Source of the DNA: Calothrix sp. MO_167.B12
GTDB taxonomy: Bacteria; Cyanobacteriota; Cyanobacteriia; Cyanobacteriales; Nostocaceae
Assembly: GCA_030066045.1 (NCBI GenBank)
Contig: JASJCJ010000007.1
Location: 1 to 64,000, forward strand
Direction: 5' to 3'
DNA: 64,000 bases
The number at the start of each line of letters is the position of its first letter. The first letter of the stretch is position 1. This document shows positions 1,689 through 43,098 of the stretch, piece after piece. Made by a program: the position numbers and the translations under genes. A model generated the notes under the pieces. It ran no database searches. It saw nothing but the letters and a program-made list of their open reading frames with translations, and was not told the origin of the DNA.

Positions 1689-2406
1689 TATGATTCCGTA
1701 AAGTAGATCTAAAAATTAGAAATTTACTACTGTAACCGCAACTTCTCACTGATAACCGAAATGACATATTAAGTCTCTACATCATTTTCTCTGAATAAGC
1801 CAAAATAACTCATCCCATTCTTAAGGCAGTAAATTAATATTGAACCAGTAAAAAATAAAAATCATATTTATTTATCGCACACTCTCTTGATAGGTAAAAA
1901 CTATAGAAATCATATTTGATTTTTGAAAAAAACGAGCGTACACTTTCTGTTAATAGTTCCCTGTTTTCAAGTTAGTCTCTCATGAACTTTGGTACACAAC
2001 CAAGGATCTGAAAATAATTCCCTCACTCTGGGCGGGGAAACCCCGCCCCTACTCCTGAACTCCGAACTCCGAACTCCGAACTCCGAACTCACTATTTTCA
2101 AGTTAGCTCCCCACGGTCAAATCCCACAACCTGCGTATCTGAAAATGCTTTGTGACTAACTCCTCAAGGGCGCACGCAATGCGCCCCTACATCGCACCTC
2201 CGCGCCTATTTTCAAGCTAGTCCCACTCTGCTCAAAGCCGCGCTTCGCGCGTCTACATGGACAATGTTTTGTCCACAACCAAGGATGAAAATAATTCCCT
2301 CACTCTGGGCGGGGAAACCCCGCCCCTACTCCGAATTCCGAATTCCGAACTCCGAACTCCGAACTCCGAATTCCCTATTTTCAAGCTAGTCCAAATGAAG
2401 TAAATT
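1689..2406. repeat. Mosaic repeat block upstream of the DUF58 gene
   Basis: A 700-bp gap with no gene. From 1964 to 2391 the motif tattttcaagctagtcc (with variants) occurs four times, near 1964, 2095, 2209 and 2378. Between copies lie cargo segments: a gggcggggaaaccccgccc palindrome with gaactccg octamers (2028-2092), a gggcgcacgcaatgcgccc palindrome (2165-2190), and a second gggcggggaaaccccgccc copy with octamers (2308-2374). The last joint ends about 15 bases before the DUF58 start, so the native promoter is probably displaced or supplied by the repeat. At 1905-1950 there is a short IS-end-like segment (aacgagcgtacacttt) shared with the sequence near 39400. Confidence 0.75.
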
Positions 2407-4495: not shown

Positions 4496-4770
4496 TTAGG
4501 GCTTGCTGTTCGCGGAGCGTGCCGTTAGGCATAAAAGTCTTTTGGTGTGGGTAGGGAATAAGGAAGAAGGAACATGGGACACGTAGGGGCGGGGTTTCCC
4601 CGCCCAGAGAACAAGAGACAGGGAAAAGTTTCAGTCTATTTTTTTTATCATCAAAAATTCTATATACAAGGATTTTTAAACCTAAAATTCCAATTGACTT
4701 GCACTTATTACCCAAAAAATAGCCTCAAAGCATTGATAAATCAATATTTTTCAGTTATTCAGCAAGCCCA
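4496..4770. repeat. MITE-like element with agggcttgctg ends
   Basis: Begins agggcttgctg just after the methyltransferase stop and ends cagcaagccca at about 4770, so its ends are inverted. Inside are a gggcggggtttccccgccc-type palindrome (4588-4608) and the motif attgataaatcaat near 4734. The same motif and the same right end recur at 22597-22852. No transposase is encoded, so this is a non-autonomous element or the relic of one. Confidence 0.6.
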
Positions 4771-10418: not shown

Positions 10419-10484
10419 TCTCGTTCTATATTAAGTAGCCATCATGAACTGCGTACACATGAAAATCTATTTTCCCCAACCCCT

Positions 10485-10623
10485 AGGGCGTGTTTTCAAA
10501 CTATGTATGGTGTAGGTTGGGTAGAACGAAGTGAAACCCAACTGGGTGTACGGAAAATGTTGGGTTTCGTTCCTCAACCCAACCTACAATTGATGCTAAT
10601 TTTGGGTTTGAAAACAGTCCCTA
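10485..10623. repeat. MITE-like element, tgttttcaaac ends
   Basis: About 139 bp, opening tagggcgtgttttcaaac and closing gtttgaaaacagtccct, an imperfect terminal inverted repeat. The inside is a hairpin built of gtaggttgggtagaacg and cgttcctcaacccaacc arms. A nearly identical copy in the same orientation is at 20133-20269; partial copies are at 28072-28194 and 59039-59180. No coding capacity. Confidence 0.8.
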
Positions 10624-11255
10624 ACCCCAAACACCTAACCCCTATTTTCAAGTCAGTCTCCCACGAGAAAATCTCACAACCAAGCATGAAAATACCTCGA
10701 GTGCGACTCCCACACCTCAGCTGTCAACCATCAACCATCAACCATCAACTAACAACTAACAACTAACAACCATTTTCTAGCTAGTCCCCCATGTACATTT
10801 GTACGTAACCAAACATAAAAATAATCCCCTCACTCCGGGCGGGGAAACCCCGCCCCTACTCCTTCCCTCCGAACTCTCTATTTTCTAGCTAGTCCTGCAT
10901 GAATTGTGGTACACAACCAAACATCAAAATATTTCGAGTGCGACTCCCACTCCTAAGCTGTCAACCATCAACTAACAACTAACAACTAACAACCATTTTC
11001 TAGCTAGGTAGGCGTAAGAAAATGTAAGACTTAACCTCACCCCTGGTCCCTCTGCTTACTAAGGATGCTGCTGGCGAATAGTGGGCATGACCCCTGATTA
11101 TGCTAAAAACTGGGGATTACTGTCATAATTTGAGCTGGGTTTTTTCTACCCCCACTCCCAAGAGGGTGATACCCCTGATTCGCCATTGGTATCTTACGAA
11201 GGAGAGGGGTGCCGTCAGGCGAGGTGAGGTTTTATATTTAATTTGACCCAGTTAC
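10624..11255. repeat. Second mosaic repeat block
   Basis: Four copies of the joint attttctagctagtcc (or attttcaagtcagtc) at about 10643, 10771, 10878 and 10993 separate three cargo segments. Two are cgagtgcgactcccac followed by caactaacaac heptamers; the middle one is the gggcggggaaaccccgccc palindrome. After each joint comes a variable stretch, then acaaccaagcatgaaaat. The architecture matches 1964-2391 but with cargo in a different order. From 11020 to 11255 I see only repeat fragments (ggtgataccccтga-like short motifs are not conserved) and no gene. Confidence 0.72.
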
Positions 11256-15615: not shown

Positions 15616-15920
15616 TTGTTAGTTAGTGGTTGTTAGTTGTTAGTTGGTGGTTGATGGTTGACAGTTGACGGTTGACAGTTGACGGTTGACGGTTGGGATT
15701 TAATGCATTCCTCCTTCCCTCCTTCCCTCCTTCACTCCTTCACTCCTTCACTCCTTCACTCCTTCACTCCTTCCCTCCTTCCCTCCTTCCCTCCTTCCCT
15801 CCTTCACTCCTTCCCTCCTTCCCTCCTTCCCTCCTTCCCTCCTTCCCTCCTTCACTCCGGGCGGGGAAACCCCGCCCCTACTCCGAACCCCGAACTCCGA
15901 ACCCCGAACTCCGAACCCCG
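15616..15920. repeat. Heptamer/octamer tandem arrays upstream of the GH38 gene
   Basis: First a gttgttagttgacagttgacgg heptamer array split as gttagttgt and gttgacg units (15616-15699). Then about 20 units of ccctcctt / cactcctt (15709-15856), a gggcggggaaaccccgccc palindrome (15858-15879), and finally gaactccg / gaaccccg octamers (15884-15920). All three frames of this array are open, which gives false Ser/Pro/Leu-rich ORFs. The rest of the gap from 15376 is plain AT-rich sequence. Confidence 0.9.
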
Positions 15921-19533: not shown

Positions 19534-20817
19534 ATTTTCCATAATAAAAAAGTAGATTACGAATAGTATTCTTTTGACACTTTCACCACCTTAACGCAGC
19601 CATGCACGACAGGGCTATAGCTGACGCTTTGGCGGGAGATTCTTGTTTCTGTGAAACCTGCTTTTTGGTACCAGTTTTTGAAGAAGTTACAGATTTCATT
19701 TTGCCATGAATGCTTTTGGAAAGACTAGCTAGAAAATAGTTGTTAGTTATTAGTTGACAGCTTAGGAGTGGGAGTCGCAGTCGAGGTATTTTCATGCTTG
19801 GTTGTGGGATGTTCTCGTGAGGGACTAGCGTCAAGAAGAGACGCACCAGACGCGGAGAGAGGGAGACGCACTCCTCCACCTATGTGGTGGGGGCTTGAGG
19901 TGCCCACCAATCGGGAGCCATCAAATCGCAGATTTTGATGGGGGAGGAGGACCCTTGGGGCTTATCGCCCCGACACAGAGCGCTCCGCGTCCGGTGTGTC
20001 CCCGCTTAAGCGCGTCATCCGGTTGAAAATAGGGAGTTCGGAGTTCGGAGTTCAGGAGTAGGGGCGGGGTTTCTCCGCCCAGAGTTAGGGAATTATTTTC
20101 ATCCTTGGTTGTGGGATTTTCCCGTGGGGGACTAGGGCGTGTTTTCAAACTATGGTGTAGGTTGGGTAGAACGAAGTGAAACCCAACTGGATGTACGGAA
20201 AATGTTGGGTTTCGTTCCTCAACCCAACCTACAATTGATGCTAATTTTGGGTTTGAAAACAGACCCTAGCTTTAACAATACCAAGTTTAGGAAGTTTTAA
20301 ACCACTATTCTTAATTGAGCAGCTTTCAGGGTAACGGGTTGATTGTTTAGAGTGCTTACTGTTTACAGATTTAACGTCGAGATCCTATTGGTGGTAGAAT
20401 ACCGCAGAAAAGCATTCATCTCACGGTTCTCACCCAGGGTGCGTGTCAGCGCGTAACCCTACGGGTGTAACGGGTGTTGTGCGTAAAATAAATCAAACTG
20501 CCTTTGCTAGCCCTATGGCTGCGCGGGTTCCTCCTTGAGGGGATAAAGGCAGAAATGCCAGAGACGCTGTGTAAGACTCAGACTGGATTTAGTTCCGGAT
20601 ACCCATTTTTTGGGAATACCCAACGGAGCAACGGCTAGTGAGACGCGTAAAGCCTACGGTATGGCTTCGCTTAACGCGGAGCGTGCGCGTCAGCGCTTAG
20701 CCCCTAGTGTAGCGTTAGCGAAGCTATGCCGAAGGCTATAGCGAAACTAGGGGTAATTCACGATAAAATATTACCGAAAAGTTAAAAAAACTTTGGCAAT
20801 ATAGTCTTAGGTGAAAT
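19534..20817. repeat. Repeat-filled gap between psbN and psbH
   Basis: About 1.28 kb without a gene. At 19722-19815 and 20027-20132 are inverted copies of the mosaic joint/cargo structure (gactagctagaaaat joint, cgactcccac-type and ggcggggtttc-type cargo, accaagcatgaaaat element in reverse). At 19826-20000 there are short palindromic pieces with gcgtctc and cgcttaag. At 20133-20269 lies a near-identical copy of the 139-bp element at 10485. From 20380 to 20755 there are cgcgtcagcg, gcgaagctatgccgaag and related short interspersed palindromes. The psbH promoter must lie within or beyond these. Confidence 0.75.
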
Positions 20818-28340: not shown

Positions 28341-28461
28341 AATCAAGAAGCGCGAAGTAGGGGCGCATTGCGTGCGCCCTTGAGGAGTTAGGAACCAAGC
28401 ATTTTCATCCTTGATAGTGAAAAATTTTTTTCATCGGCACAGCCTTCTCTGATAGACATTT

Positions 28462-41040: not shown

Positions 41041-41226
41041 GTTCGGAGTATGGGAAGTGTGGGAAGTGTGGGGAGTGTGGGAAGTGTGGGAAGTGTGGGG
41101 AGTGTGGGAAGTGTGGGGAGTGTGGGGAGTGTGGGGAGTGTGGGGAGCGAAATAATTAAGCTGTCAACCAACAACTAACAACCAACAACCACCAACTAAC
41201 AACTAACAACCAACAACCACCAACCA
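41041..41226. repeat. Minisatellite between ccsA and the DUF3352 gene
   Basis: About eleven units of gtgtggga / gtgtgggg (41049-41147), followed by caaccaacaactaacaacc-type units (41161-41220). The array touches the stop codon of the DUF3352 gene. Confidence 0.92.
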
Positions 41227-42948: not shown

Positions 42949-43098
42949 TTCAGTTATCAGTTATCAGTTATCAGTTATCAGTTTCCCATCAATCAATCAA
43001 GGGGCAAGAGTAGAAGAGATTTTTTCCCTCCTTCCCTCTTGGGCGCAAGCATTGCGCCCCTACACACTCCGAACTCCGAACTCCGAACTCCGAACTCA
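42949..43098. repeat. Repeats between two minus-strand genes
   Basis: tcagttatcag units directly before the DUF3352 start (42953-42981), then ccttccctcttgggcgcaag and gaactccg octamers (43064-43096). These lie between gatA and its downstream neighbour, so the pair is probably not a tight operon. Confidence 0.85.

Follow-up and report, generated by a model that had tools for sequence, protein, structure and literature searches.

Head-to-tail repeat arrays in Calothrix are likely composed of units with constant ends and variable cargo

The window analyzed here, a stretch of 64,000 nucleotides from Calothrix sp. MO_167.B12, contains three arrays with one common grammar, at 1962–2389 (+), 10643–11007 (+) and approximately 19725–20131 (–). 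The first-pass annotation had placed the same architecture at 10640–11010 and, inverted, at 19720–20130, in agreement with our boundaries, and had described it as a constant joint with interchangeable cargo. A constant boundary does exist, and the fillings do differ at orthologous sites, but the joint is likely composite, formed where the right end (RE) of a unit meets the left end of its successor. The unit likely comprises a left end of ~40 bp, cargo and an RE of ~14 bp; the order of repeats, head to tail, is left end (TCCCYCA, weak dyad, CACAACC..GATGAAAAT), cargo and RE (ATTTTCNAGYTAG). Nor is the interchange of cargo free: cargo goes with its left end and tends to the order B-A-C. On balance, we think that the arrays are probably stacks of non-autonomous elements whose content is further altered by exchange between units; among the explanations proposed earlier, a non-autonomous family with nested growth fits best.

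In array 1 the left arm of the joint occurs at 1962, 2093, 2207 and 2376 (+), with spacings of 131, 114 and 169 bp and identities of 84, 79, 100 and 100%, i.e. four times, as originally noted. The second element, which had been said to follow each joint, is present after three of the four, while the last (2376–2389) is a bare left half followed by other sequence. The repeats previously taken for gaactccg octamers are heptamers (period 7). We distinguish four types of cargo: type A (AATTCCCTCACTC, hairpin core GGGCGGGGAAACCCCGCCC and heptamers), type B (CTTTGTGACTAAC... with core GGGCGCACGCAATGCGCCC), type C (CTCGAGTGCGGCTCCCACACCTAAGC and CAACTAA heptamers), and type D (GTTGCC repeats), which lies outside the window's arrays. 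The three arrays contain the following features:

1962–1975 (+): RE at the head of array 1, TGTTTTCAAGTTAG, with a D-like tail (GTTAATAGTTCCC) just before it
1976–2106 (+): unit 1, type A; left end 1976–2016, hairpin core 2030–2048, heptamers 2051–2090, RE 2093–2106
2107–2220 (+): unit 2, type B; left end 2107–2147 (GAAAATG), core 2167–2189, RE 2207–2220
2221–2389 (+): unit 3, type A; left end 2221–2293, broken by a 31-bp hairpin repeat at about 2225–2255, core 2307–2325, heptamers 2328–2374, terminal RE 2376–2389
10643–10656 (+): RE at the head of array 2, TATTTTCAAGTCAG
10657–10784 (+): first unit of array 2, type C; left end to 10694, core 10704–10727, heptamers 10724–10770, RE 10771–10784
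10785–10892 (+): second unit of array 2, type A; core 10837–10855, RE 10879–10892
10893–11007 (+): third unit of array 2, type C; core 10941–10964, terminal RE 10994–11007
19725–19828 (–): unit of array 3, type C; RE 19725–19738, core 19754–19777, left end 19787–19824, foot CTAG 19825–19828
19830–20022 (–): 193-bp insert in array 3, which splits the joint (TATTTTCAA / GCTAG)
20023–20131 (–): unit of array 3, type A; RE remnant 20023–20031, variant hairpin and heptamers, left end 20094–20131

The 193-bp insert is dispersed, and a similar one lies within the B cargo of another locus (L002). An inverted-repeat element of 136–140 bp (TAGGGCGTGTTTTCAAAC...GTTTGAAAACAG.CCCTA, with TA at both edges) was seen at 10484–10623 and 20133–20268; the latter copy, of 136 bp, adjoins array 3 and overlaps the CTAG foot of a unit. 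Elsewhere in the window there are A cores outside arrays at 4584 (–) and 15859 (+), a hairpin core after a left-end motif at 28358 (–) with no RE nearby, a B-like core at 43041 (+), a long octamer array at 15710–15858 (CCTCCTTC, 18.6 copies) and a nonamer array at 41045–41147 (GGAGTGTGG, 11.4 copies). An Rfam search with the region 1800–2500 of the window returned no match above threshold, the single match being far below its family's cut-off, and the reading as a structured RNA was therefore dropped. The cargo cores recur throughout the genome and hence are not unique spacers, and we assign the arrays neither to CRISPR nor to a curated RNA family.

The joint is far from being confined to the window or to one kind of cargo. 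In the 7.66 Mb genome from which the window comes (G000), the joint pattern has 387 matches, with varied cargo, when up to two mismatches are allowed (15 in the reversed control), and 194 with at most one mismatch (0 in the reversed control). From 75 sequences we derived a profile of the joint with 52 positions. Run on fetched loci of ~1.0 Mb in total, it gave 266 matches at E<0.01 versus 0 in reversed DNA, and 377 versus 7 at E<10; the density does not represent the whole genome, since these loci were picked for containing the joint and since three overlap with other loci. The 266 joints fall into 109 clusters (G000, 81; G002, another species of the genus, 28). Several joints are present in 86 clusters, and a single one of these 86 has mixed orientation. 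Arrays avoid genes: their midpoints lie within ORFs in 2 of 71 cases, compared with 68% of random points. A role as terminators was considered and set aside, as arrays are not enriched between convergent genes (7/65, baseline 63/352). Among 59 genomes including its own, and with at most one mismatch, the pattern was counted 194 times in G000, 163 times in G002, 19 times in G001 and at most 10 times in each of the others, although it was derived from G000 and undercounts diverged copies elsewhere. Of the three congeneric species searched, G000 and G002 thus show an expansion of the joint, and G001 does not. When the K variant was searched as an exact pattern with gaps, the genome gave one match. 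The relatives identified by the protein identity of a neighboring gene both belong to Calothrix: the MAG MO_192.B10 (locus L031; 97%) and C. rhizosoleniae SC01 (locus L039; 92%). In aligned DNA, G002 and L031 are each about 93–97% identical to G000.

Our division of the joint into two unit ends relies on an association test with 2000 shuffles, in which 101 of 122 parsed joints, i.e. those with both neighbors typed, were used. The type of the joint core goes with the cargo downstream of it (none of 2000 shuffles was as strong), and it is tied neither to the upstream cargo (681/2000) nor to the two variable letters of the left half of the joint (1700 and 2000 of 2000). Because the core follows the downstream cargo and not the upstream cargo or the left half, the left end and the cargo after it belong together. 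That the RE is part of the same unit as the preceding cargo is inferred and less directly shown. It is assigned to the unit because array ends carry ATTTTCNAGYTAG followed by other sequence, and because of the single units of G001. The search for array ends returned 83 rows with ATTTTCNAGYTAG before unrelated flanks; it required ATTTTCNAGYTAG and a cargo-like tail, and by eye some 15–20 of the rows enter left-end-like sequence. Two letters of the RE were compared with the cargo on either side and proved independent of both: for the cargo upstream, 700 and 1990 of 2000 shuffles were as strong, and for that downstream 1815 and 506. The independence from upstream cargo counts against our preferred reading, since letters of an RE that belongs to the unit should follow the upstream cargo, although these letters vary little. 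Within 1500 bases of 182 left-end matches, an RE was found in 153 cases, with a median cargo of 64 bases. These pairs include a few false left ends within genes, and their cargo is of type A (46), B (40), C (33) or D (16), A without the hairpin (3), mixed (12) or untyped (3). A unit variant with the foot GGCAG or CAG and the left end TCCCGATGAAAAAATTTTTCACCACCAAGGATGAAA was noted in six loci (L132, L148, L146, L149, L210 and L211); in G001 the usual RE comes next after it.

The same data bear on the proposal that the 52-bp joint itself (TATTTTCA...TGAAAATA) is a mobile REPIN-like hairpin, and that cargo is simply what separates its copies. Its outer arms TATTTTCA and TGAAAATA are inverted, and the consensus fold has no pairs besides theirs: RNAalifold does not keep an inner stem, whose covariation is accordingly unsupported. 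REPINs are inverted doublets of REP sequences, according to the available part of PMC3116915, and the left half of the joint shows no tie to upstream cargo. We nevertheless find this proposal very unlikely: the two halves vary independently, the right half follows the cargo, many array ends have the left half alone, and the single units of G001 consist of left end, cargo and RE. The tie of the core to downstream cargo alone disfavors an independent joint in particular.

The cargo is composite, and its ingredients, C-rich heptamers or octamers and hairpin cores, are also present apart from units. The A core has 317 copies in G000, 227 in G002 and 3 in G001, and it reaches 67, 56, 24 and 19 copies outside the genus, in genomes with 10, 2, 0 and 1 matches to the joint pattern, respectively. 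The B core occurs 224 times in G000, 245 times in G002 and not in G001, with 24, 4 and 1 copies in three other genera; the C core occurs 106 times in G000, 138 times in G002 and in no other of the 59 genomes, G001 included. In a G000 sample, in which a few loci overlap, cores lie between a left-end motif and an RE in 43/73 (A), 47/66 (B) and 23/40 (C) cases. Thus the A hairpin, if no other, has an existence outside the unit, into which it was most likely set. Around the joint matches of G001 there are 18 loci (two of which, L212 and L222, resemble chance matches), mostly with one or two units each, and their cargo consists of C-rich repeats with no A, B or C core; one of them (L218, GAAAATAATTCCTTCACTCTTTCACTCC...) is a type A unit minus the A hairpin. 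A B variant that is G002's own (CGGGGGTGAC) was found in 15 of 28 copies there and in 0 of 40 in G000, which we regard as a sign of recent spread. Core divergence amounts to 5.4% for B, 6.9% for A and 10.3% for C. This order hints that the youngest units are at the 5' end, but we rejected the idea, as the pair L105/L156 retains the 5' B unit and changes the 3' units.

Our preferred reading, stacking of non-autonomous elements with exchange between units, would operate as follows. The units would be short non-autonomous mobile elements of which the arrays are built, and a transposase acting in trans would put a unit 3' of a YTAG-like sequence. The unit's own YTAG end could then provide a fresh target for each insertion, and arrays would grow in one orientation because the unit ends in YTAG and insertion follows YTAG-like sequence. 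Exchange at shared ends (GAAAAT / ATTTTC, joint homology) could swap, duplicate or remove cargo in place. In a search that left the first position open to any base, the foot was CTAG in 146 and TTAG in 72 of 226 cases (YTAG 218/226); at array ends it was one of these two in 73/85 (55 CTAG, 18 TTAG). The first letter of the foot is alike between array neighbors in 76 of 145 cases, against a null of 75.1. Since this does not exceed chance, the foot seems to be part of the unit rather than a target duplication, and propagation of a target site duplication along the array is unsupported; a foot that is part of the unit would show just this lack of likeness. It is this property that would allow a unit to insert behind its neighbor. 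YTAR was present at the junction in 5/17 partner alleles that lack the RE, and in 3/9 partners fetched by flank (L013, L020 and L218; one doubly counted site merged), against a background of 0.0195. A hand-aligned count of 7/11 was made post hoc and includes one site by one of two alleles. Taken together, this lends modest support to YTAG as the native target. In one locus (L106) the array lies within another repeat, after TAG and with TAG on both sides, and the repeat is uninterrupted in G002 (L168); both flanks of a G002 array (L143) match the repeat interrupted in L106. A repeat ending in GGTTCTCAAGGTAGATGAGGTTTA or similar adjoins several array ends (L106, L030, L015, L133 and L143), and TTCTCAAGGTAG of this repeat resembles the RE of the unit.

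As to the enzyme, 24 matches to Y1 transposases were found in G000, and none of them is bounded by unit ends, which speaks against our preferred reading. Three of the 24 (L187, L197 and L206) nevertheless have joints nearby, one array lying ~0.4 kb past an intact Y1 ORF, so that a linkage may exist; no joint was found at E<1 near the longer Y1 ORFs (L199, L201 and L202). The left boundary of the unit likewise is not fixed by clean empty sites, which also counts against this reading.

Comparison of species revealed rapid turnover. For G002, 34 short flanks were joined, which gave 29 matches, 28 of them used; 7 pairs from other loci (six from G002, one from the sister MAG, L031) raise the total to 35 pairs, of which 20 have both flanks, 2 are contiguous and 13 lack the second flank. 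Although the sisters are ~95% identical in the flanks, arrays are unchanged in only 2 of 22 comparable pairs (L026/L151 and L097/L158, the latter cut by a contig edge), which disagrees with one ancestral block. In place of 1906–2398 of the window, L031 has a 70-base remnant that resembles one C unit. At another locus (L022) five units in G000 correspond to one short unit in G001, and two sites have no unit at all in the sister (L133/L169 and L126/L170).

We also compared partner alleles via the flank right after the array end. The RE was scored at the array-end position in 21/38 partner alleles, a count that includes reciprocal pairs as well as chance and repeat matches; cleaning by eye left 14 genome pairs at 12 sites where a second species has an RE in the same position. 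For partners fetched by flank and not by joint, the RE was at the same place in 11/21 as scored and in 9/21 by eye, after L026/L168 and L133/L169 had been judged wrong. At one site the RE and the flank match in three species, each with its own filling: G001 (L264) has heptamers and lacks a clear left end, G000 (L117) has B cargo, and the cargo of G002 (L162) is C-like. Some array positions are thus common to species while their content differs, and the 12 sites give some support to the insertion hotspot proposed earlier.

These common positions with different fillings would also be produced by recombination only, i.e. if the arrays were old and immobile, and homologous or short-homology exchange and gene conversion among dispersed joints shuffled, duplicated and deleted their cargo. 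Several observations point in this direction. In the pair L130/L142, a gene start of G002 (ATGAAAATGCC) is joined in G000 at ATGAAAATGC to B cargo, with a length of 59 bases in G000 versus 593 in G002, and in L132/L154 a left end continues directly into ATGAAAATA, the start that belongs to the gene itself. Both are fusions at ATGAAAAT(A/G) to gene starts, and they are compatible with short-homology exchange. The G002 locus L134 has a tandem B-C duplication with seams at ATTTTC, and hybrid cargo occurs, e.g. B-C. Finally, the letter N of ATTTTCNAG is alike between array neighbors in 116 of 145 cases (null 103.2; 1 of 3000 shuffles), which favors local copying and in this respect goes against the preferred reading. 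Together with the fusions, the duplication and the mixed cargo, this likeness indicates that local copying or short-homology exchange contributes. As the whole explanation, recombination is nonetheless rather doubtful in our opinion, if with an appreciable chance of being right, as it accounts neither for the growth in copy number over G001 (194 and 163 versus 19 matches to the G000-derived pattern), nor for the array inside another repeat after TAG, nor for the sites without a unit in the sister.

Cargo tends to be ordered within arrays. Of 76 arrays with at least two of A, B and C, 53 follow the order B, A, C (permutations: mean 25.2, maximum 38). In 85 arrays the pair orders are BA 46 versus AB 13, BC 68 versus CB 10 and AC 28 versus CA 11, with 0, 0 and 28 of 5000 permutations as strong, respectively; both array sets include some arrays orthologous to each other. 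This order is predicted by no model tested, our preferred one included. Movement of whole B-A-C arrays as blocks is unsupported, given that the joint core is independent of the upstream cargo. Ordered content, one orientation, common addresses with different content and a variable joint core would suit non-coding cassettes handled by a site-specific recombinase, with the joint as the recombination site, as in integron arrays; this is highly improbable, however, considering that the cargo consists of short repeats (median 64 bases) and not genes, that there are many sites (387 matches) and not one array, and that half a joint is kept at array ends. We would give a small chance to a gene-free site-specific cassette system, in which a putative recombinase or transposase adds, removes and exchanges non-coding cassettes at common addresses, in one orientation and with the preferred order B, A, C, using the YTAG joint as both donor and target.

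Filamentous cyanobacteria host hairpins of the type of small dispersed repeats (SDR), as well as STRR, which are heptamer repeats. The SDR of Nostoc, reported by Elhai et al. in 2008, are said to comprise eight families of 21–27 nt repeats, very small hairpins nested in heptamer arrays and minitransposons. By this description, SDR are the nearest known system in host and ingredients, and the A and B cores resemble SDR-type cargo; our arrays differ in that the hairpins reside in a larger unit, which has fixed ends and stacks head to tail. The cargo tails are heptamers like STRR (period 7), which are here one ingredient and not the whole unit. Elements of the IS200/IS605 group have no terminal inverted repeats (TIR) or target site duplications (TSD), insert 3' of a fixed tetranucleotide and carry subterminal hairpins at both ends. 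Insertion after a neighbor would resemble the IS200/IS605 logic, but we do not file the units there, because no enzyme with these ends was found.

By inspection, the units have no TIR and are not classical MITEs: they start with TCCCYCA and end with NAGYTAG, and the sole inverted pair is the internal GAAAAT/ATTTTC. In single-stranded DNA folding, two of five units from the window were no better than shuffles, and the left-end dyad is weak. The lack of a visible TIR, this folding result and the restriction of RNAalifold pairs to the outer arms of the joint all count against our preferred reading. REP/REPIN sequences with RAYT share with our units a tetranucleotide foot by a small palindrome, tandem clusters and occurrence in cyanobacteria, as far as the available parts of PMC3733652 and PMC3116915 go; foot-tagged palindromes in cyanobacteria are already known from the former. 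The foot is never GTAG here (0/226), and we do not include the units in the GTAG superfamily. The first-pass statement that no known repeat describes such an architecture was too strong, as modular composite repeats such as BOX, BIME, NIME and Correia are known (PMC3049150, available part), the first three of which combine fixed ends with variable middles. The BOX of Streptococcus has, according to the same part, fixed end modules and variable inner modules with strain-varying size, a description that our units fit as well. BOX, however, has one inner module repeated between two ends and is reported to have TIRs and TSDs, whereas here whole end-to-end units repeat, with several kinds of cargo and no TIR seen. 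Tandem repeats within MITEs are also known: the BrickBuilt MITE of Porphyromonas has a tandem repeat between leader and tail modules, and the available part of PMC4596501 describes one tandem repeat and inverted-repeat ends, and no stacking or exchangeable cargo. We found no description of the present unit in the literature at the level of titles and abstract openings, a scope outside which most subscription journals fall.

The arrays provide the grammar, in worked form, of repeats that quickly reshape intergenic DNA within a genus. They suggest a route by which small hairpin repeats may ride in a host element, and how arrays could arise without selection from an element with an end identical to its target. 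As the content changes at addresses some of which persist, comparison of close strains would directly show the order and the mechanism of events.
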